Positions 37,582 through 47,025 of a stretch of DNA of 64,000 bases are shown here, in pieces. Location: assembly GCF_023008545.1 (NCBI RefSeq), contig NZ_CP095397.1, forward strand, positions 2,356,001 to 2,420,000, written 5' to 3'. Below the pieces are notes generated by a model, which had not been told where the DNA came from, made no database searches, and was given only the letters and a program-made list of their open reading frames with translations. This DNA is from Natribaculum luteum. GTDB lineage: Archaea; Halobacteriota; Halobacteria; Halobacteriales; Natrialbaceae. A program made the position numbers and the translations under genes. Positions within the stretch are counted from its first letter, which is position 1; the number at the start of each line of letters is the position of its first letter.

Positions 37582-37702
37582 TCGAGTACGTACCGGTCGT
37601 CTCGGCACGACAGGCGATAACACCGCACGACGGCCCCGTCACCCGGTATTCAGTGCGTAACGCTCCTGACGACCCAGCGGGGCCTCGAGGTGACGACCGA
37701 AC

Positions 37703-38053
37703 CTACAGCCGTTCTCGCTCTCGAGTGAACGGCGCCGTCGCCCGCTCGACGAATCGCGCGAGCCGTGCTCGCCAGCGGCTTCGGCGGGTACTCGACTCGA
37801 GTGCGTGGCGACGTTGCAGTTTCGCTCGCTCGTCGGAACGCCTGGCGAGCGTGAGGAGGCCACGCGCCCACGTCACGGCGACGACAACGGCTGTCGAGGC
37901 GTAGTACAGCGCCGTCACTGCCTGCGACGCCGTCACGAGTGCAGCGGCGACCCCGCTTGCGAACATGAGTACACCCGCGACGAACAACGCGGCGGTGATC
38001 GGTGACGCCGACGGTGACGCGCCGAGGTGTCGCTCGAGAGGCGTCCGTGGCAT
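37703..38053 (-). CDS. Small two-span membrane protein
   Basis: A 116-residue protein. After MPRTPLERHLGASPSAS come two membrane spans (about residues 18-40 and 46-65), then a very basic tail (ARRSDERAKLQRRHALESSTRRSRWRARL and on) likely on the cytoplasmic side. No known family. The ATG at 38051-38053 is used; an in-frame GTG 12 bases upstream is possible. Confidence 0.6.
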   Translation of the reverse strand: MPRTPLERHLGASPSASPITAALFVAGVLMFASGVAAALVTASQAVTALYYASTAVVVAVTWARGLLTLARRSDERAKLQRRHALESSTRRSRWRARLARFVERATAPFTRERERL

Positions 38054-38300
38054 GTCTCGAGACACATCGTCGTGGGTAATGAAAGTCAGTCAGACGAACG
38101 TCTGTCGCGATCGGGTCGTCGAGACACTGGTGGCCAGACGAACGGAGGGTGAGGTGAGACAGTGTCGTCCGTCCTGGCCGAGTGGCGGCGTCACGCTGTA
38201 CAGGTGCTGTCGTCGACGTTCCAAAGCGGGGCAGGTCTCCGTTCGCCCTCGGTCCGAAAAGTAACACTATTGTGTTCCCTGGACCAAGCCGGACGTACGG

Positions 38301-38373
38301 AGTCCCGTGGTGTAGTGGCCAATCATAGCGGCCTTTGGAGCCGCTGACGGCGGTTCGAATCCGCCCGGGACTA
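38301..38373 (+). tRNA. tRNA-Gln (anticodon TTG)
   Basis: A 73-base tRNA without encoded CCA. Acceptor AGTCCCG pairs with CGGGACT, discriminator A. Anticodon stem GCGGC/GCCGC encloses the loop CTTTGGA, giving TTG. The T-arm is GGCGG TTCGAAT CCGCC. No intron. Confidence 0.93.
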
Positions 38374-38374
38374 T
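38350..38374 (+). repeat. Attachment-site-like direct repeat, in tRNA-Gln 3' end
   Basis: The last 24 bases of the tRNA plus one base (GCGGTTCGAATCCGC, then CCGGGACTAT) recur at 38453-38477 with one mismatch. Duplication of a tRNA 3' end is the usual footprint of tyrosine-integrase integration. Confidence 0.6.
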
Positions 38375-38452
38375 CCTGCTGCGAACAAACTCGTGAGCAG
38401 CAGGTATCCCCGGCGGTTCGAACCAGGCGAGACGAGCGAAGCGGGTCTCGAC

Positions 38453-38477
38453 GCGGTTCGAATCCGCTCGGGACTAT
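38453..38477 (+). repeat. Duplicated tRNA-Gln 3' end (att-like)
   Basis: A 25-base match to the end of tRNA-Gln with one difference (CCGCTCGG instead of CCGCCCGG). A shorter fragment, GCGGTTCGAA, also occurs at 38413-38422, so several integration scars may be stacked here. The 5' part of a tRNA is absent. Confidence 0.6.
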
Positions 38478-38688
38478 TACCCCGAGTACAACGACGGCCA
38501 TTGTCTCGCTCTTCGGTAGTCTCGCGGAGTGATGCGCTTCGAGGTCGAGTGGTTCGAGGTTCTCCGATTTTCGGGCGACCCCGGAGCGTTCGTCTCGACC
38601 GCTGATAATCGGCTCGCGCAGGGCAGGCGTGTACTTCCGCGTACGTCGTCGCCAAAACCACTATCAAATATGACGTTAAAGAATACAT
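38478..38688. other. Non-coding stretch after the tRNA scars
   Basis: About 210 bases without a supportable gene. An AT-rich segment, GACGTTAAAGAATACATATG, runs into the ATG at 38689 and looks like a promoter of the following decayed gene. Confidence 0.4.
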
Positions 38689-39213
38689 ATGGGAGATCTA
38701 ACGGGTGTGTGTTCGGGTGATGAGGTCACCGTCAGGCTGACGAACGACGACGGAGACCTGCGAATCGACGACTCGAACCGGGAAGTGGCGGTTCACCTCG
38801 ATCGGGCGGGAGAAATCGAATCCGGAGAGACAAAATCGATCACCGCCACCGTGACTACGTGTATCTATTCGACCTCGGGTTCCCTGGAGACCATCTTCCT
38901 GTCGGCGAACAGTCAGAACGGCGGGGAAACCACTCGGTCTGCCCGATCGAATTCGGCCACCGATTCGAGAGGACGGTCACGTGGGAAGAAACACACCACG
39001 GTGAACGCCAGCAGGCGAAGCAAAAGCGCTACGCGGACGAAATCGCGCGAACGGACGGAAAAACTAAACGAGTTACACCGGATCGCTACAGATCTCATCG
39101 GCGACGAACCCGTTACGGAGAAAGAAAACAGGACGTCGTCGATCGGAGAGGCCAAGAGGCGGGCAAAGAAACAGGGGAGAGATCCCGCAGTCGATCCGAA
39201 GTTACGCGACTGA
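38689..39213 (+). pseudogene. Decayed gene with two frameshifts
   Basis: Haloarchaeal codon bias moves between frames. Frame 1 holds VTVRLTNDDGDLRIDDSNREVAVHL to about 38855. Frame 3 then holds YVYLFDLGFPGDHLPVGEQSER and ERQQAKQKRYADEIARTDG to about 39060. Frame 1 resumes with KLNELHRIATDLIGDEPV and EAKRRAKKQGRDPAVDPKLRD, followed by a stop at 39211. Joined, this would be a protein of about 175 residues with a basic C-terminal region. The family is not recognised. Confidence 0.5.
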
Positions 39214-39237
39214 CCGATCCTCGAGGGTCGTCTGCGT

Positions 39238-39480
39238 CTGATACGGACCGCTGTACGTCACTACCGGAGCAACCGCGAGCAGTCCGGCGGCTTTCGGAAA
39301 CAGGTACAGCAGGAATTCTCACTCGTTATCCTGCTCGTTCCAACCGTCGTTGCGGTGGTCGTGCTGGCTCGATACTGGGGCTGGCGACCGGATGGTGTTC
39401 TCATCGTTGCTGGAGGACTGGTCACAGGTGGAAAACACCGTGGGACGCGTTCTACGACGCCCTCGTATATGCCGTTACGA
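39238..39480 (+). pseudogene. Decayed membrane protein fragment
   Basis: Frame 1 holds AVRHYRSNREQSGGFRKQ followed by EFSLVILLVPTVVAVVVLARYWGWRPDGVLIVAGGLVTGG, two likely membrane spans. Near 39430 the coding signal shifts to frame 3 (TPWDAFYDALVYAVTT). No start codon is clear. It appears to be a frameshifted remnant. Confidence 0.45.
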
Positions 39481-39492
39481 CACCCTCGCACG

Positions 39493-39867
39493 CTAGTCAA
39501 CGAACGACGAGAACGTTATCGAGTCGTCGTTGATATCGATGTGAAGTCCTTGCGCATCGCTCTCTCCATCAGACCATTCATACGTATTCTCAGGACCGTC
39601 TTCTACACGAAGGTGGACTTCGACCTGGGTGCCACTGACGACTTCCTCGTACTCCTCGGTGTCACCGGCGTCAATAGTAACTGTTTCGTCGAGCAACTTC
39701 GCGTCGTCGGACAGTTGTGTAACCTGAATACCAGCTGTTACCGTATTCGACGTCTCGTTTGCAATAGTAATGTCTGTCGTCCCACCAGAGTTTACACCTG
39801 AACACCCGGACAAACCGAGTAACGCAAGCGAGAACCCGCCGATGAACGTTCGTCTCTCGATAGACAT
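39493..39867 (-). CDS. Tat-exported lipoprotein
   Basis: A 124-residue protein with a twin-arginine signal, MSIERRTFIGGFSLALLGLSGC, ending in a lipobox at Cys22. The rest (TDITIANETSNTVTAGIQVTQLSDDAKLLDETVTIDAGDTEEYEEVV) looks like a single beta-sandwich domain. The gene is more AT-rich than the genome average and lies in the decayed region next to tRNA-Gln, so it may be acquired. The function is unknown. Confidence 0.75.
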   Translation of the reverse strand: MSIERRTFIGGFSLALLGLSGCSGVNSGGTTDITIANETSNTVTAGIQVTQLSDDAKLLDETVTIDAGDTEEYEEVVSGTQVEVHLRVEDGPENTYEWSDGESDAQGLHIDINDDSITFSSFVD

Positions 39868-40388
39868 CGCATGCGGATTTCATATCAGCTGATAAGTGTT
39901 TTTGGAAGTATCACTCGATTGGTGTAGGTGCATACCCACTTGTTGGCCAGTCCACTGTAGAAGCGGGTGTAGCGCCGGGAGCGGGAATGTGTGCAGATCT
40001 GGGCCTAGCGGACGAGCGGCTCGAGTTCTCTCAGTTTGAGTTTTGTATCAAAATTTACTAGGGTGGAAAATAAAGTCTGCAGCAGTCGACACCATCCACA
40101 CGCAGTGTCGTATTTCGTGTCGACGCTTTGCCTCGAGACCACGGCAGATACGACGTCGAGTGGCTGGATGGGACTCGAGCAGGACCGCGTCTGCGCATTG
40201 TCCCGGAGCACTGTTGAACTCCTGCAACGATCGCCTGGCGGTCGACCGTCCGGAACGTCGCTTCACTCCGCCGTACGGGTCGGTGTGAACGGGATCGAAC
40301 GATACTGAACAGTCCGTGAAGCGTTAAAATCCGATCGACACTGTCGTCACGTTATTTGGGACGTCCGGCACTCGAGTCCGACGCTGTC
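39868..40388. other. Gene-poor region between lipoprotein and membrane gene pair
   Basis: About 520 bases with no supportable gene. Composition is mixed, with an AT-rich patch at about 40040-40080. A TATA-like GTTATTT at about 40351-40357 probably serves the gene at 40389. The rest may be remnant DNA. Confidence 0.45.
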
Positions 40389-40976
40389 ATGACGTACAAT
40401 CAAAGCGAAATGCGAGACGCGATCGACTACCAGCGGGTTCGGTCGATCGGGAAGCTCCTGTTCGCGACGCTGTCGTTGCTGTTTCTCCTCTCTGTCGTAT
40501 CACTCCTTCCGGGTATCGGCCTGTTCGTTCCGAACACGCCGATCACGCTGTACGCACTCGCGAGTGCGATCGTAACGCTCGCAGTCGTCGGATTGCTACT
40601 CTACGTCGCGCCGGGACTCGCGAGACTCACTCGAGCGACTCTCGGCGGGCCCGACGAGATCGTCGACGACGTCGCGTCAGTCGTCCACCTGCTCGTCGTC
40701 CTCGCCGCGGTGCTGGTCGCACACCGGGGGCTGGCTCCGGCCGTGACGCCCTTCCTCGAGGACGCTACGTGGGCCTACGACGTGACGTTCCTGTTGATCT
40801 CGCTGCCGCTGCTCGCGGTCGTCGCGAGTCAGCTCTACGCGTCGCTCGATCCGGCCGCCGACCTGTTCGCAGATCGGATCGCGGGCTCGAGTGCGGCCGA
40901 CGACGCCACCACCGCTTCTACGGCGGAGAGATCGAACGCGGACGACGATTCCACCACGGAGGGATCGACCCGATGA
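40389..40976 (+). CDS. Membrane protein, four to five spans
   Basis: A 195-residue protein with hydrophobic segments at about residues 22-45, 50-75, 100-118 and 133-155, and an acidic Ala/Thr/Ser-rich tail (DDATTASTAERSNADDD). Its TGA overlaps the next ATG (ATGA), so the two membrane proteins are translationally coupled and may form a complex. No known family. Confidence 0.65.
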   Translation: MTYNQSEMRDAIDYQRVRSIGKLLFATLSLLFLLSVVSLLPGIGLFVPNTPITLYALASAIVTLAVVGLLLYVAPGLARLTRATLGGPDEIVDDVASVVHLLVVLAAVLVAHRGLAPAVTPFLEDATWAYDVTFLLISLPLLAVVASQLYASLDPAADLFADRIAGSSAADDATTASTAERSNADDDSTTEGSTR

Positions 40977-41581
40977 GCGCGAGGTCGCACTCGAGTGACG
41001 GCCGGGCGATTCCGTTCGTCGCGGGCGCCGTCGCCGGCATCGTGACGTGGCTGCTGGGATATGCGTTCACCTACGTGATCGTCGCACCCGACGTTCGCGA
41101 GTCGGGACTCCATCGTGCTGTCGAAGCGTTCGACGGCGAACCGGCCACCTACGAGATGGTGGGGTGGGTCTTCTACAACGCCCACTTCGTCGACACCGTG
41201 TTCCGGAACGTCCCGCTGGTCGGGAGCATCACGACCACGTACGTCGGCGGCGAAGAGGGATTCACGCTGCTGTTGCACGCAGTACCCGCCGGGCTGCTCT
41301 TCGTCGCGGGGCTGGCTCTCGCCACCTACCGGGGCGTCGCGTCGGTGAGCGACGGCGCGCTCGCGGGTCTGGCGACCGTCCCGGGGTACCTCCTGCTGTC
41401 GGCCGCCGGTGCGTTCCTCTTCGAGGTCACCGTCGGCGGTGCGAGCGGTGCCCCCGACGCGGTGCCGGCGGTCGTCCTCGCGGGACTCGTCTTCCCCGCG
41501 ATCTTCGCCGGCGGCGGTGGGGCCGTCGCCGCGGTGACGGCCGACCGGGACCGCCGGGTGTCGGAGGAGGCGCGTTCCTGA
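40973..41581 (+). CDS. Membrane protein, four spans, coupled to the upstream gene
   Basis: A 202-residue protein with spans near residues 13-36, 100-120, 127-150 and 160-183, and an extracellular-type loop FDGEPATYEMVGWVFYNAHFVDTVFRNVP between the first two. The start overlaps the stop of the preceding gene by 4 bases. Unknown function; probably acts with its partner. Confidence 0.65.
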   Translation: MSARSHSSDGRAIPFVAGAVAGIVTWLLGYAFTYVIVAPDVRESGLHRAVEAFDGEPATYEMVGWVFYNAHFVDTVFRNVPLVGSITTTYVGGEEGFTLLLHAVPAGLLFVAGLALATYRGVASVSDGALAGLATVPGYLLLSAAGAFLFEVTVGGASGAPDAVPAVVLAGLVFPAIFAGGGGAVAAVTADRDRRVSEEARS

Positions 41582-41624
41582 CCGGCGTCGAGTCCGTAGC
41601 CGAGGTTCGACGAACGGTGACCGA

Positions 41625-42848
41625 TCAGACGAGCCCCGCCTCGTGCATGTAGTCGTCGAGTTTTTCTGCGATCGTCCGTGCGAAGGTCTCGTCGTTGACG
41701 TCGGTCTCGAGTTCGAGCAGTTCCACGTTCTCGTCGACGCCCTCGCGCAGGGCCTCGAACAGCGCCGCGTCGGCCTCGGGATCGTAGAACTCCTCGCCTT
41801 CCACCGAGAGCATCGAGACGCCCTCGAGCGGCAAGGCGAGCGCCGTCTCACCCGTCGCGGCCGAGAGTTTCTCGGCGACGATCGAGCCGAGTTCGGCACA
41901 CTCCTCGGGCGTCGTCCGCATCAGCGTCACCTGCGGGTTGTGGACGTGGAGGTTCCGGTCGCGAAACTCCTCTGGTACCGAGTCTTCGGGACCGAAGTTG
42001 ACCATGTCGAGTGCGCCAGTAGAGACGACCTGTGGAATCCCTGCCTGTGCTGCCGCCTCGAGACGCTCGGGTCCGGCACTCAGGACGCCGCCGACGAGTT
42101 CGTCGGCCCACTCGGTGGTCGTCACGTCGAGGACGCCGTCGATGACGCCCTGTTCGATCAGGTTCTCCATCGCGCGACCGCCGGTACCCGTCGCGTGGAA
42201 GACGATCGTCTCGTAGCCACGGTCCTCGAGGTACTCGCGGGCGGTCTGGACGCACGGCGTCGTGACGCCGAACATCGTGATCCCGATCGTCGGCCGTTCT
42301 TCGACCTCGACGTCGGGTTCGCTCGAGACCATGCCGACGGTCGCGAGTGCGGCGTTCGAGATGACCTCCCGCGAGAGCTGGTTGAGCCCCTCGACGTCGG
42401 CGACCGAGTACATCATGGCGACGTCTTTGGCACCGACGTAGGGCTCGACGTCGCCGGAGGCCATCGTCGAGACCATCAGCTTCGGGACGCCGACTGGAAG
42501 CGCCCGCATCGCGGTCGTGGCGATCGAGGTGTTGCCCGATCCGCCGAGACCGAGAATACCCTCGAGGACGCCCTCCTCGTGGAGACGGTCGGCGACGGCG
42601 GCGGCACCCTCACCCATCGCTTCCATCGCCTCGCCGCGGTCGGCCTCCTCGCGGAGGTGCTCGAGGCTGGTGCCGGCAACCTGGGCGACCTCGGCGGCGG
42701 CGGTGTCGGGTTCGAACTCGGCCTCGGGGTCGCCCATCACCCCGACGTCGACGACGTGGACGTCCACGCCCGCGGCTTCGATCACGTCCCGGGCGAACCC
42801 GATCTCTTCACCTTTCGTGTCGAACGTGCCGACGATGACGACCGCCAT
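41625..42848 (-). CDS. UPF0261 / Tm-1-like ATP-binding protein
   Basis: A 407-residue protein: AVVIVGTFDTKGEEIGFARDVIEAAGVDVHVVDVG at the start, LGLGGSGNTSIATTAMRALPVGVPKLMVSTMASGDV, then ITMFGVTTPCVQTAREYL and VFHATGTGGRAMENLIEQGVIDGVLDVTTTE. This matches the UPF0261 (Tm-1-like ATP-binding) family. In many bacteria and in plant/fungal fusions it travels with a TIM-barrel protein like the next gene. The two genes here are 1 base apart on the same strand. Confidence 0.88.
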   Translation of the reverse strand: MAVVIVGTFDTKGEEIGFARDVIEAAGVDVHVVDVGVMGDPEAEFEPDTAAAEVAQVAGTSLEHLREEADRGEAMEAMGEGAAAVADRLHEEGVLEGILGLGGSGNTSIATTAMRALPVGVPKLMVSTMASGDVEPYVGAKDVAMMYSVADVEGLNQLSREVISNAALATVGMVSSEPDVEVEERPTIGITMFGVTTPCVQTAREYLEDRGYETIVFHATGTGGRAMENLIEQGVIDGVLDVTTTEWADELVGGVLSAGPERLEAAAQAGIPQVVSTGALDMVNFGPEDSVPEEFRDRNLHVHNPQVTLMRTTPEECAELGSIVAEKLSAATGETALALPLEGVSMLSVEGEEFYDPEADAALFEALREGVDENVELLELETDVNDETFARTIAEKLDDYMHEAGLV

Positions 42849-42849
42849 G

Positions 42850-43683
42850 TCAGTAGTCGATCTCCTTGAACTCCCGCGTCTGGTTCTCGATGGCCTCCTC
42901 GGTCGGGAGCCGTTCGACGCTCGAGGCACCGAAGAAGCCGACCACGCCCTCGGTGTTTTGCAGGACGTACTCGGCGTCGTCCGGCCAGGCGATCGGCCCG
43001 CCGTGGCAGATGACCAGCACGTCCTCGTCGACCTCCTTCGCGGCGTCGTGGTGGGACTGGACCCGTTCGGCCGCCGCCTCGAGGTCCAGGGCCGTCTCGG
43101 CGCCGATGTCGCCGGAGGTCGTAAGCCCCATGTGCGAGACGACGACGTCGGCACCGGCCTCGGTCATTTCGCGGGCCTGCTCCTCGGAGAAGACGTAGGG
43201 GCAGGTCAGCATCCCCTGCTCGCTGGCCTCCTGGATCATGTCGACCTCCCTGTCGTAGCCCATGCCGGTCTCCTCCAGGTTCTGCCGGAACCCGCTGTCC
43301 TCGTCGATGAGCCCGACGGTCGGGAAGTTCTGCACGCCCGAGAAGCCGCGCCGTCTGAGGTCCTCGACGAAGACGTCCATCTGCCGGAACGGGTCGGTGC
43401 CGTTGACGCCCGCGAGTACCGGGGTGTCCTCGACGACGGGGAGCACCTCCCGGCCCATCTCGAGGACGATCTCGTTCGCGTCACCGTAGGGCAGCAGGCC
43501 GGCGAGCGATCCCCGGCCGTTCATCCGGTACCGCCCGGAGTTGTAGATGATAAGCAGGTCGACGCCGCCGCGTTCGGCGAACTTCGCCGAGATACCGGTC
43601 CCCGCACCCGCGCCGATGATCGGTTCGCCATCCTCGACCGTCGCCTCGAGTCGTGACAGTGACTCGTCTCTGGTAAACTCCAT
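42850..43683 (-). CDS. PEP-hydrolase-family TIM-barrel protein
   Basis: A 277-residue TIM-barrel protein: EPIIGAGAGTGISAKFAERGGVDLLIIYNSGRYRMNGRGSLAGLLPYGDAN is the family signature. GVQNFPTVGLIDEDSGFRQNLEETGMGYDREV and VVSHMGLTTSGDIGAETALDL follow. It belongs to the phosphoenolpyruvate hydrolase/phosphonopyruvate hydrolase-like family that pairs with UPF0261. The reaction is not established. The ATG at 43681-43683 is preferred to one two codons upstream. Confidence 0.85.
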   Translation of the reverse strand: MEFTRDESLSRLEATVEDGEPIIGAGAGTGISAKFAERGGVDLLIIYNSGRYRMNGRGSLAGLLPYGDANEIVLEMGREVLPVVEDTPVLAGVNGTDPFRQMDVFVEDLRRRGFSGVQNFPTVGLIDEDSGFRQNLEETGMGYDREVDMIQEASEQGMLTCPYVFSEEQAREMTEAGADVVVSHMGLTTSGDIGAETALDLEAAAERVQSHHDAAKEVDEDVLVICHGGPIAWPDDAEYVLQNTEGVVGFFGASSVERLPTEEAIENQTREFKEIDY

Positions 43684-43859
43684 AGTCAACTGCTATCGCA
43701 TCACGTGGATTCTTGAAGATATCGGCCGCGTGCACGTTCGGTGGAGCCGTCGCACAGTGCCCATCGCGACCGATCCCACGGTCGGCGCGGATCGCTGTGA
43801 GAGACGCCAGGTCACTGGACGGTACGTTTATTGCCCGTGGGGTGACAATATGTGTGAGA

Positions 43860-44282
43860 ATGTCAGACAATTCGGACGACTACTTCGTCGGCAGCGAGGA
43901 CGTATCGACGCAGGTGTTCGACTGGGGGACGCTCAAGTGGATGGCGACGCCCGACGTGAACGACTCCGAGCGGTTGAGCGCCGGGGTCGTCCAGCTCGAG
44001 CCCGGGAGAGGCCACGAACTGCACACTCATCCCGACAGCGACGAGGTCCTCTACGTCGTCTCCGGCGAGGGCGAGCAGACGGTCGCGGGCGAGACGCGCG
44101 AGGTCGCTGCGGGCGAGATGATCTACATCCCCGCGGACGTCGAACACGGGACGCAAAACACCGGCTGGGAGACGCTGAAACTGCTCGCGGTCTACGCACC
44201 GCCGGGACCAGAGGACGTGCTGGCGGAGATGCCGGAGTGTACGGTCGTCCCGGCTGGCGAGTTCCCCGAGCAGAACGAGTGA
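43860..44282 (+). CDS. Cupin-domain protein
   Basis: A 140-residue single cupin. Motif 1 is GRGHELHTHPDSDEVLYVVSGEGE (His-x-His and Glu metal ligands, about residues 49-72); motif 2 is AGEMIYIPADVEHGTQNTG. It is divergent from the UPF0261/PEP-hydrolase pair, with 176 bases between the starts, so it may share regulation. A GTTTATT box lies about 33 bases before the ATG. The substrate is unknown. Confidence 0.85.
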   Translation: MSDNSDDYFVGSEDVSTQVFDWGTLKWMATPDVNDSERLSAGVVQLEPGRGHELHTHPDSDEVLYVVSGEGEQTVAGETREVAAGEMIYIPADVEHGTQNTGWETLKLLAVYAPPGPEDVLAEMPECTVVPAGEFPEQNE

Positions 44283-44397
44283 CGGTCTCGGTCGGAAACG
44301 CGCGGCTCGAGCACCTCGAGGTGGGACTCGAGACGGAGTCGCTGGCGAACAATGATATAGCCTCCACCCGCAGGGTCAGCCACGAGCGTACCGAACG

Positions 44398-47025
44398 ATG
44401 ACGAGACACTACGACCACGAGGAAGTGAGAGAGTTCTGGCAGTACGTCTGGGATCGTGACGACGTCTTCGCGCTGCCGGAAGACGCCGACGATCCGACGT
44501 ACGTGCTGGGAATGTTCCCGTACACGTCGGGTGACGTGCACATGGGCCACGTCAGAAACTACGCGATCACGGACGCATACGCCCGGTATCGACGGATGCA
44601 GGGCGACGACGTCCTCCACCCGATGGGGTGGGACGCGTTCGGCCTCCCGGCGGAGAACGCCGCCCTCGAGCGGTACACAGACCCCGAGTCCTGGACCCAG
44701 GCGTGTATCTCTCGGATGCGCGAACAGCTCGAGGAACTCGGCTTCGGCTACGACTGGTCTCGCGAGATTACGACCTGCGAACCGGAGTACTACCGCTGGA
44801 ACCAGTGGCTGTTCACCCGGTTCTACGAGGCGGGGCTCGTCGAGTACGAGGCGGCGATGGTCAACTGGTGTCCCGACTGCGAGACGGTGCTGGCCGACGC
44901 GCAGGTCGAGACCGACGACACCCAGCAGGTCTGCTGGCGGTGTGAGACGCCCGTCGAGCGGCGCGAACTCGACCAGTGGTTCTTCACGATCACCGACTAC
45001 GCCGACGAACTGTACGAGGGGCTCGAGGACCTCGAGGAGTGGCCCGAGGGCGTCCGGGAGATCCAGCGCAACTGGATCGGTCGTCGCGAGGGTGCCGAGA
45101 TTACGTTCTCGCTCCCCGACGGCGACGAGGTCAACGTGTTCAGCACCCGCCCGGAGACCGTCTACGGCGCGACCTTCCTCGCGCTCTCGCCCGGCCACGA
45201 CCTGGTCTCCGACCTCGTCGCTACCGACGACGACCTCGCCGACGCCGTCGACGCCGTCCGCGAGCAGACGCCGGGCGAGGCTGGCTACGACGGCGTCGAC
45301 ACTGGTATCCGGGCGACCCATCCTCTGACCGGTGACGAGCTGCCGGTCTACGTCGCCCCCTACGTCCTGGAGGACGTCGGCACCGGTGCCGTGATGGGCG
45401 TTCCGGCACACAACGAGCGCGACCACGCGTTCGCACGCGAGCACGACCTCCCGATCAGTGGCGTGATCGTCCCCGACGACGGCGAGACGGACCTGCCGGA
45501 CGAACCCTACACCGGTGAGGGCATCCTCGAGGGAAGCGGCGAGTACGACGGCCTCGAGAGTGCCGTCGCCGGACGGCGCATGCTCGAGGAGGTCGACGCG
45601 ATCGAACCCGCGACGACCTATCGCCTGCGCGACTGGCTCATCTCCCGGCAGCGCTACTGGGGGACGCCGATCCCGATCGTCCACTGCGAGGACTGTGGCC
45701 ACGTTCCGGTTCCCGACGACGACCTCCCGGTCGAACTGCCGGAGTTCGTCCACACGACGGGGAATCCGCTCGCGGAACAGGAGTCGTTCGTCGAGACGAC
45801 CTGTCCCGAGTGTGGCGGCCCCGCGCGCCGGGAGACGGACACGATGGACACGTTCGTCGACTCCTCGTGGTACTTCCTGCGATACCTCTCGCCGGACCTC
45901 GAGGACGCGCCGTTCGACGCCGGTCTCGCCGACGACTGGCTGCCGGTCGACGTCTACGTCGGCGGCGACGAACACGCCACGTTGCACCTGCTGTACGTCC
46001 GCTTTTTCACGAAGGCGCTCGCGGATCTCGGTCTGCTCGAGGTCCGCGAACCGGTCGAGCGACTCGTCAGTCAGGGGACGGTGCTGTACGACGGCGAGAA
46101 GATGTCGGCCTCGAAGGGCAACGTCGTCGCTCCACAGGAGTACGGCGCGGAGACGACACGGCTGTTCGTCCTCTCGGCGGCCCACCCCGAACAGGACTTC
46201 GAGTGGACGGCGAACAACGTCCGCGGTGCCTACGACCTCCAGCAGACGCTCTACGCGATGGTCATGTCGTTCGTCGACGAGGGCGTCAGCCGGAGCGAAC
46301 GTGCGCCCCGGGACGCGTACGTCGACGGTGAGATCGACCGAACGATCGCCGCCGTGACCGAGGAGTACGAGCGGTTCCGGTTCCACCGGGCCGTCGCCGA
46401 GATTCGAGGCCTCGCGCAGTTGCTCCGTCGGTACCGGGAGCACGGGACGCCACACGGAGACGTCTACCGTCGTGGACTGTTGACCCTCGCGGCGCTCGTC
46501 TCGCCGATGGCACCCCACCTCGGCGAGGAACTGTGGAACAGGCTCCGGGGCGACGGCCTCGTTGTCGAGGCGGCGTGGCCGGAGCCGCGTCGTGACGCGT
46601 CGGCGTACCGGCTCGAGCGCCGCCTCGTCGAGACGACCCTCGAGGACGTCCGGGACATCGTCGACGTCGTCGACATCGACGATCCGGAACGAATCGAACT
46701 GGTCGCCGCAGAGACGTGGAAACACCGCGTCTACGATCGCGTCCGAAACACCGAGCGCGACGCCGACGTCGTCGACCGAGTACTGGACGACGGCACGATC
46801 GACGCGGCCGACGACGACGTCGCGGCGTTCACCGCGGAACTGGCCGATCGTCGGGCAGAACTCGACCCGCTCCTCGACGCCGAGCGCGAACTGGCCGTCC
46901 TGGAACGGGCGAGTTGGCTCTTCGACGACGAGTTCGGCGCCGACGTGACGGTTCGAAGGGCGACGGACGACGACGACCTCGCACGGAAGGCTAGCCCCGG
47001 AAAGCCTGCGATTCGCATCAGCTGA
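44398..47025 (+). CDS. leuS: Leucyl-tRNA synthetase, bacterial-type
   Basis: An 875-residue class I synthetase. The HIGH-equivalent FPYTSGDVHMGHVRNY lies at about residues 40-55. The CP1 editing domain contains TRPETVYGATFLALSPGH, and KMSAS (GEKMSASKGN) is near residue 566. The zinc-type pairs CEDCGH and CPECGG flank the catalytic insertion, and WYFLRYLSPDLEDAPFD with DVYVGGDEHATLHLLY are typical of bacterial LeuRS. Transfer of bacterial LeuRS into haloarchaea is known. Its TGA shares its last base with a decayed 82-bp repeat. Confidence 0.95.
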   Translation: MTRHYDHEEVREFWQYVWDRDDVFALPEDADDPTYVLGMFPYTSGDVHMGHVRNYAITDAYARYRRMQGDDVLHPMGWDAFGLPAENAALERYTDPESWTQACISRMREQLEELGFGYDWSREITTCEPEYYRWNQWLFTRFYEAGLVEYEAAMVNWCPDCETVLADAQVETDDTQQVCWRCETPVERRELDQWFFTITDYADELYEGLEDLEEWPEGVREIQRNWIGRREGAEITFSLPDGDEVNVFSTRPETVYGATFLALSPGHDLVSDLVATDDDLADAVDAVREQTPGEAGYDGVDTGIRATHPLTGDELPVYVAPYVLEDVGTGAVMGVPAHNERDHAFAREHDLPISGVIVPDDGETDLPDEPYTGEGILEGSGEYDGLESAVAGRRMLEEVDAIEPATTYRLRDWLISRQRYWGTPIPIVHCEDCGHVPVPDDDLPVELPEFVHTTGNPLAEQESFVETTCPECGGPARRETDTMDTFVDSSWYFLRYLSPDLEDAPFDAGLADDWLPVDVYVGGDEHATLHLLYVRFFTKALADLGLLEVREPVERLVSQGTVLYDGEKMSASKGNVVAPQEYGAETTRLFVLSAAHPEQDFEWTANNVRGAYDLQQTLYAMVMSFVDEGVSRSERAPRDAYVDGEIDRTIAAVTEEYERFRFHRAVAEIRGLAQLLRRYREHGTPHGDVYRRGLLTLAALVSPMAPHLGEELWNRLRGDGLVVEAAWPEPRRDASAYRLERRLVETTLEDVRDIVDVVDIDDPERIELVAAETWKHRVYDRVRNTERDADVVDRVLDDGTIDAADDDVAAFTAELADRRAELDPLLDAERELAVLERASWLFDDEFGADVTVRRATDDDDLARKASPGKPAIRIS

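Follow-up and report, generated by a model that had tools for sequence, protein, structure and literature searches.

What stands behind the tRNA-Gln gene of Natribaculum luteum, and how did the end of that gene come to be written there a second time? In the window, by which we mean the whole stretch of 64,000 nucleotides analysed, a second tRNA-Gln 3′ end is placed 103 bp behind the gene, with one mismatch in 25. A sequence-only reading had taken this repeat, together with a third short piece between the two copies, for stacked tRNA ends at an integration hotspot. The following features were assigned to the locus.

38301–38373, plus strand: tRNA-Gln(TTG), the host gene, intronless in Natribaculum luteum (ARAGORN; Rfam RF00005, 62 bits)
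38350–38374, plus strand: tRNA-Gln 3′ end, first copy of the direct repeat
38374–38476, plus strand: complete 103-bp unit consisting of hairpin A, hairpin B and the restored tRNA-Gln 3′ end (R1 model, 100.8 bits)
38375–38404, plus strand: hairpin A (covariation; R2 match, E 4.4e-11, also a training sequence)
38409–38472: hairpin B overall (fold)
38409–38424, plus strand: 5′ arm of hairpin B, a degenerate reverse complement of the tRNA-Gln 3′ end (fold; own-tail complement in other units)
38425–38452, plus strand: middle hairpin with a GCGAAGC tip (fold; sister-species comparison)
38453–38477, plus strand: tRNA-Gln 3′ end, second copy and 3′ arm of hairpin B, one mismatch (repeat comparison, fold)
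38478–40355: downstream stretch, shared with the sister species at 95–98% except for two insertions there; no island within the genus

The 25-base direct repeat (38350–38374 and 38453–38477, one mismatch) was confirmed at 96% identity. The third piece, GCGGTTCGAA at 38413, is present; however, it is not a forward tRNA end, and in the fold it pairs with the second tRNA end. In relatives, and likewise behind other tRNAs, the corresponding arm matches the tRNA 3′ end in reverse complement; a third forward tail was therefore rejected and the piece was assigned to the complementary arm of hairpin B. A second tRNA gene or pseudogene was likewise rejected, since ARAGORN and Rfam RF00005 recognise only 38301–38373 as a cloverleaf. 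The spacing between the two tail copies is 78 bp, which carry no cargo and are filled by hairpins. Hairpin A has an 8-bp stem (CCTGCTGC/GCAGCAGG), facing G-A pairs and a short tip (GAACAAACTCGTGA); no GAGCGAAGCGA tips were found elsewhere in the window. The middle sequence of the tRNA-Gln unit in the sister species differs from that at 38425–38452.

Folding of the Gln unit gave z-scores of −6.1 as RNA and −5.7 as DNA, and none of 200 shuffles folded equally well; the opposite strand folds about equally well. Among 39 extracted units, z was below −2 in 35 (60 shuffles each). We aligned 24 units, 20 from behind tRNA-Gln and four from behind other tRNAs of N. luteum. In this alignment, 91.7% of cells pair in the two-hairpin structure, 11 of its 22 pairs have changed in both partners, and covariation scored 0.342 compared with 0.172 in shuffles. 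When the partners were slid by 1–3 columns, pairing fell to 27–42%. Hairpin A stood out with two-sided changes in 8 of 10 pairs across the 24 sequences: its stem varies freely and its tip is conserved, mostly as GAACAA...CGTGA or GAGCAA...CGCGA. A scan for GA-tipped hairpins behind tRNAs, which requires at least 6 of 8 Watson-Crick pairs and also picks up middle hairpins with a GA tip, returned 112 distinct hairpins with 58 distinct stems. In RNA, facing GA pairs that close a terminal loop form the L7Ae-binding k-loop. Compared with the k-loop, hairpin A has a nearly invariant GA...(T/C)GA but no bulge, and one of its two inner pairs alternates between A-U (17) and G-C (7), as ordinary covarying pairs do.

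To follow the unit through the genome, we built the model R1 from 24 training units, five of them from N. luteum (Gln, Glu, two Val and Phe). R1 contains tRNA-like letters, and a second model, R2, was therefore built from hairpin A alone, without tRNA sequence (13 training hairpins, three from N. luteum). In the N. luteum genome (4.6 Mb), R1 gave 29 matches at E up to 0.1, including the five training units, and 28 followed a tRNA gene on the same strand. Of these, 20 are at most 5 nt away from the gene, and the others are stacked at a distance of 102–412 nt. The only match that was not behind a tRNA gene was the weakest (E 0.083), and the top match genome-wide was the Gln unit at 38374–38476, itself a training sequence. 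The hosts are the tRNAs for Gln, Val(TAC), Val(GAC), Val(CAC), Glu(CTC), Glu(TTC), Thr(CGT), Thr(TGT), Phe, His, Ser(TGA), Leu(TAG), Lys(TTT), Lys(CTT), Gly(CCC), Gly(TCC), Pro(CGG) and Ile(GAT), two genes called Met(CAT), and an intron-bearing Trp. R2 (E up to 1) gave 21 matches, including its three training sequences, and all 21 sit 0–413 nt behind a tRNA, on its strand. Among 29 loci of R1 matches examined with ARAGORN, which was run without introns, 22 show a tRNA; L070, L071, L080 and L086 are not counted among the 22. L066, L069 and L073 come from genomes whose tRNA-Gln has an insertion in the anticodon region. The tRNA-Gln gene seems to bear an intron in some relatives (L018, L019, L029), and units accompany either form.

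The copied end is that of the host tRNA itself. The own 20-nt tail (at most 3 mismatches, within 350 nt behind the gene) recurs at 26 of 48 chromosomal tRNA genes of N. luteum, compared with 0 of 1480 pairings with unrelated tails, so the repeat at tRNA-Gln lies beyond chance; the other 22 genes have no close tail copy. The set of 48 leaves out one spurious intron-bearing Arg prediction and six predictions on contig C2, and includes Gly-GCC at 1460128, which is weakly predicted and has a 6-nt intron. The 5′ arm of hairpin B fits the own tail (at most 2 mismatches of 12) in 27 of 39 units and shows 3–5 mismatches in 12, compared with a fit in 59 of 1169 comparisons with other tails, where tails differing by fewer than three bases were left out. 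Taken with the forward copies, the inverted arm gives three occurrences of the tail: a forward one in the tRNA, an inverted one within the unit and a second forward one that closes the unit. In genus g7 (L015, L032), the tail copies of the unit read TTCGATATCC and the tRNA reads TTCGAATCC; the copies there thus resemble each other more than they resemble the gene.

The units are spread through the haloarchaea. A 281-bp query around the site matched 60 of 61 related genomes, in some cases to the tRNA only; many matches run through the tRNA into the unit, and several relatives have a second or third unit. R1 (E up to 0.001) matched 57 of the 61 relatives and 141 of 145 genomes drawn from the class (none in G045, G068, G071 and G076). 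In a sample of 148 genomes from the phylum it matched 22, every one of them from the same order; the three sets overlap. Of 42 listed genomes in the phylum sample, 22 matched, two of the same order did not, and 18 without a match belong to other families; the 106 unlisted, unmatched genomes were taken as other families. R1 was also run on 80 of 118 loci that carry the pattern of the hairpin A core. All 14 haloarchaeal loci matched at E 0.0004 or better, a tRNA being visible at 10 of these 14 named loci, and none of the 66 non-haloarchaeal loci fell below E 0.029. Named carriers include Natrinema pallidum, Natrialba asiatica, Haloterrigena salina and Haloarcula rara. The existence of a family of such units in haloarchaea can be taken as practically certain. 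Local duplication as the sole explanation was rejected, the unit being present across the order and behind many tRNAs.

No Rfam 15 family reached its gathering score on the unit; the sole matches there were to miRNA models, which scored far lower than their own thresholds. Carrier phages gave no match to the unit. Plasmids gave two short matches (22–23% of the query). The better of them falls on an 828-kb replicon of Natronorubrum bangense, where it covers hairpin A of a complete unit that follows a tRNA-Gly, and is thus again a tRNA site.

The sequence-only reading had also pointed to a 1.9-kb stretch of decayed genes and a lone lipoprotein behind the repeat, and proposed comparing the locus among strains for inserted elements. 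The stretch is colinear with the sister species at 95–98%, as is the window from 37598 to 45959, and a species-specific island behind tRNA-Gln was rejected for this reason. The comparison did reveal two insertions in the sister species, about 933 bp at 38653–38658 and about 1071 bp at 39590–39592. Their overlaps of 6 and 3 bp look like target duplications. The segment 38653–39592 is 98.2% identical to the sister species, above its flanks (95–97%). An ORF of 174 aa (38689–39213) has no significant Pfam match (best E 0.089), and a minus-strand ORF (39493–39867), whose start reads as lipoprotein-like, has no Pfam match.

A hotspot of gene-bearing elements at tRNA-Gln is not borne out, given 78 bp without cargo and an arrangement that recurs behind about half of the tRNA genes. 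The related explanation, that the units are attachment-site scars from successive integration and excision of large elements, is largely refuted, and we consider it very improbable. It would account for the direct repeat of the tRNA 3′ end, and tRNA genes are known integration targets. Haloferax gibbonsii has three integrated elements with tRNA 3′-end termini (PMC7921747). The sister species also offers a probable example at tRNA-Glu(TTC): an integrase lies about 0.8 kb behind the intact gene at 615.9 kb, which lacks a unit; the unit instead follows a truncated tRNA-Glu at 600.6 kb, 15 kb from the intact tRNA. This locus is likely a true integrated element, distinct from the unit; its span reads as C1 600619–615996 (L328, L310). 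However, scars would not explain a conserved two-hairpin anatomy in 141 of 145 genomes, or specificity for the own tail behind about half of the tRNAs without any cargo, and the stretch downstream of tRNA-Gln is common to the sister species. Among the integrase matches listed for 32 genomes (about half of 315), inspection by eye showed none within 20 kb of tRNA-Gln.

Unit numbers change between close relatives. N. luteum and the sister species have, respectively, 1 and 0 units behind His, 0 and 1 behind Leu(CAA), 2 and 1 behind Met, 1 and 2 behind Gly(GCC), 1 and 3 behind Leu(TAG), 2 and 1 behind Val(GAC), and 1 and 2 behind Leu(TAA); in this count, some orthologues are mismatched or were paired by name (Lys-TTT, Glu-TTC), and end shifts lower some identities. 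The bodies of the seven tRNAs that differ in number are identical over their overlap, and His and Leu(CAA) are clean cases of presence and absence. In 29 species of one genus, tRNA-Val(TAC) has no unit of 90 bp or more in 4 species, some of which keep decayed remnants, one unit in 20, two in 3, three in 1 and four in 1. Within arrays, the tail copies decay outward: in 18 of 28 arrays the farthest copy is poorer than the nearest, in 9 the two are equal and in 1 the farthest is better, although the arrays are not independent and the Leu-GAG array of the sister species (3 and 5 mismatches) may be spurious. Of the repeated integrations and excisions first proposed for this locus, the stacked copies and the turnover (between the sister species, and from 0 to 4 units at Val(TAC)) are supported, and gene-bearing attachment scars are not.

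The two hairpins of a unit behave differently. When all pairings of units between N. luteum and the sister species were considered, the hairpin A part was at least 0.8 identical at orthologous loci in 20 of 54 unit pairs, and between different tRNAs it was mostly about 0.5 identical; it is also common to two Lys tRNAs (0.93) and partly to two Glu tRNAs (0.78). The middle hairpin, in contrast, often has nearly the same sequence at different tRNAs (up to 100% identity), and in 7 of the 20 orthologous pairs with a hairpin A part of at least 0.8, the middle fell below 0.75. The number of independent cases is smaller, since three of the seven pairs come from two neighbouring Asp genes and three (Gly-CCC, Val-CAC and Val-TAC) stand at 0.65–0.67. 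The split was poor for the Gln and Phe units, whose values are unreliable. One middle core, M1 (27 bases with one free position), occurs behind five tRNA genes of N. luteum, those for Ser(TGA), both Met(CAT) genes, Arg(CCT) and Ser(CGA). Across 220 regions, its orientation relative to the tRNA was forward in 13 cases and reverse in none. M1 was absent from viral contigs.

The tRNA-bound location, own-tail copies in both directions, shared cores and outward decay suggest that cassettes are added next to the tRNA. Our preferred reading, which we put forward tentatively and at somewhat less than even confidence, is that the units are hairpin cassettes which lodge at the ends of tRNA genes and restore these ends. 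Each would consist, in order, of hairpin A, the reverse complement of the host tRNA 3′ end, an exchangeable middle hairpin and a forward copy of the 3′ end. Tiny non-coding cassettes would be added beside the tRNA 3′ end, the end being rebuilt so that the gene stays intact; older units would be displaced outward and then decay, and units would be lost through recombination between direct tail copies. The middle hairpin would be the part that moves between loci, with hairpin A and both tail arms derived from the locus itself. One difficulty is that a cassette carrying the end of one tRNA cannot simply move to another; either the middle hairpin would have to move or the target would have to be copied. 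We infer that addition would be an active, dedicated process, perhaps carried out by a hairpin-recognising recombinase or transposase acting in trans. No recombinase, circle or fresh insertion was seen for the units. The differences between the sister species could be losses by recombination between tails, and the outward decay could stem from gene conversion by the tRNA. The more specific proposal of a new class of element, which copies its target's own end both ways, exchanges cores and moves as folded single-stranded DNA by means of an order-specific enzyme, is possible and more doubtful than the cassette reading as such.

The same tail order may also arise passively. Under this alternative, template switching and unequal exchange, set off during replication by the T-arm palindrome and by short hairpins, give forward-inverted-forward tail copies; gene conversion spreads the middles, and there is no dedicated element or function. 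A forward, inverted, forward order is what two template switches are expected to leave, T-loop microhomology is common to the tails, and turnover and outward decay would follow. In the Leu-CAA unit of the sister species, the left part copies the native trailer, which also suits a by-product of replication. However, this explanation does not account for identical middle cores at unrelated tRNAs, nor for the conserved GA tips and compensatory changes. The T arms outside the order are similar to those within it, and the restriction of the units to one order is left unexplained. We regard a passive origin as unlikely.

Whether the folded strand is DNA or RNA bears on the main rival of the cassette reading, in which the unit is a trailer RNA, transcribed with the tRNA and cut off by tRNase Z. 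The hairpins would then serve in tRNA maturation, in precursor protection or as a small RNA, and the copied tail would let hairpin B close or would mimic a processing site. At most a few nt separate the mature tRNA end from the first unit, hairpin A combines strong covariation with a near-invariant GA tip, and the fixed orientation of M1 (13 to 0) would fit a transcript. GA-tipped hairpins contain 27 G.T and 14 A.C mispairs (p 0.06), and their inner pairs 20 and 8 (p 0.04); this excess of G.T leans weakly to the sense strand and would again fit a transcript. The arms of hairpin B, however, show no strand bias (54 G.T, 59 A.C). Predicted three-base loops in 138 units were C(GNA)G in 74 of 121 cases, with all four bases represented at N, compared with 1 of 48 after mononucleotide shuffling of 120 units. 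GNA loops closed by G-C pairs are described as extraordinarily stable DNA mini-hairpins (PMC4686876), so these triloops match a known DNA stability motif and count against a trailer RNA.

Mirror-image units were also found upstream of tRNA-Gln, in 7 of 202 upstream regions and at tRNA-Gln in every case, compared with 2 for control heads. Their layout is the tRNA 5′ end forward, a GA-paired hairpin, the 5′ end inverted, a spacer and the tRNA. The seven loci are L029, L070, L021, L024, L025, L027 and L035. Units in front of a tRNA speak against a trailer RNA, and on their account we lean to DNA rather than RNA as the folded strand. A trailer RNA is further disfavoured by the 22 of 48 tRNA genes that have no close tail copy, by the presence of 0–4 units at one tRNA within a genus, and by middles that differ at some orthologous loci. 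We consider the trailer-RNA explanation rather unlikely, although it remains the strongest competitor of the cassette reading.

The hairpin units resemble several known systems in part. Integron gene cassettes have folded attC sites and form an array beside a fixed site, with older units outward. The units share with them the array at a fixed site, the apparent outward-older polarity and the folded hairpins; unlike them, they have no cargo genes, no integrase was seen, and the attachment sequence is each tRNA's own tail. Bacterial REP/BIME sequences are short hairpin-based repeats dispersed between protein genes. The units are likewise short and hairpin-based, but they are bound to tRNAs. The MITE, PATE and SMR elements of Haloquadratum are transposase-free, occur genome-wide and tend to hit other mobile elements (PMC3119063). 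Similar to these elements, the units are short, mostly non-coding and palindromic or furnished with inverted repeats, and they would be mobilised in trans or by other means. In contrast to MITE/PATE/SMR or REP, they are not dispersed: 28 of 29 R1 matches and 21 of 21 R2 matches lie behind tRNA genes. They stand behind (rarely before) these genes and carry the host tRNA's own end, and their inverted tail copies, unlike the inverted repeats of a MITE, belong to the host tRNA itself.

Archaeal attachment sites such as those of Haloferax gibbonsii LR2-5 also show a direct repeat of the tRNA 3′ end with the tRNA left intact (PMC7921747). The units differ in that they enclose short gene-free hairpins, hold an inverted tail between the forward copies and follow about half of the tRNA genes. 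In the same strain, partial tRNAs are reported to adjoin the full copy directly, in passages that give no structure, family or explanation (PMC7921747). These partial tRNAs are the sole prior hint that we found and are possibly the same phenomenon as seen by annotation. No description of the hairpin units was found in open-access papers, and they may be described elsewhere. Two-hairpin units behind the tRNA genes of nearly all sampled haloarchaea are apparently an undescribed kind, since exchangeable hairpins flanked by inverted and forward copies of the host tRNA's own tail are not known from another class of element.

If the unit is a mobile element, it would represent a harmless route into essential genes, in which the end of the target is itself copied, and it would predict a new enzyme. 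If it is a trailer RNA, it would add a new layer of tRNA biology across a class of archaea. Under either reading, the units matter wherever partial tRNAs are counted or tRNA attachment sites are called in haloarchaeal genomes. Several of the carriers are listed under culture-collection numbers (JCM, DSM).

Dense clusters of divergent tRNA genes were observed in N. luteum (C2:681273–683008) and in the sister species (C1 at about 7–11 kb and C2:586–588 kb). No near tail copies were found in N. luteum's own cluster. The clusters on the second contigs and at the start of the sister chromosome contig possibly come from a virus or plasmid. At the second tRNA-Phe unit of N. luteum (about 1537600–1538020; L042, L047), an anticodon-arm stretch, GGACTCGACTGAAGATCGAGCTGTCCCC, stands before further hairpins.
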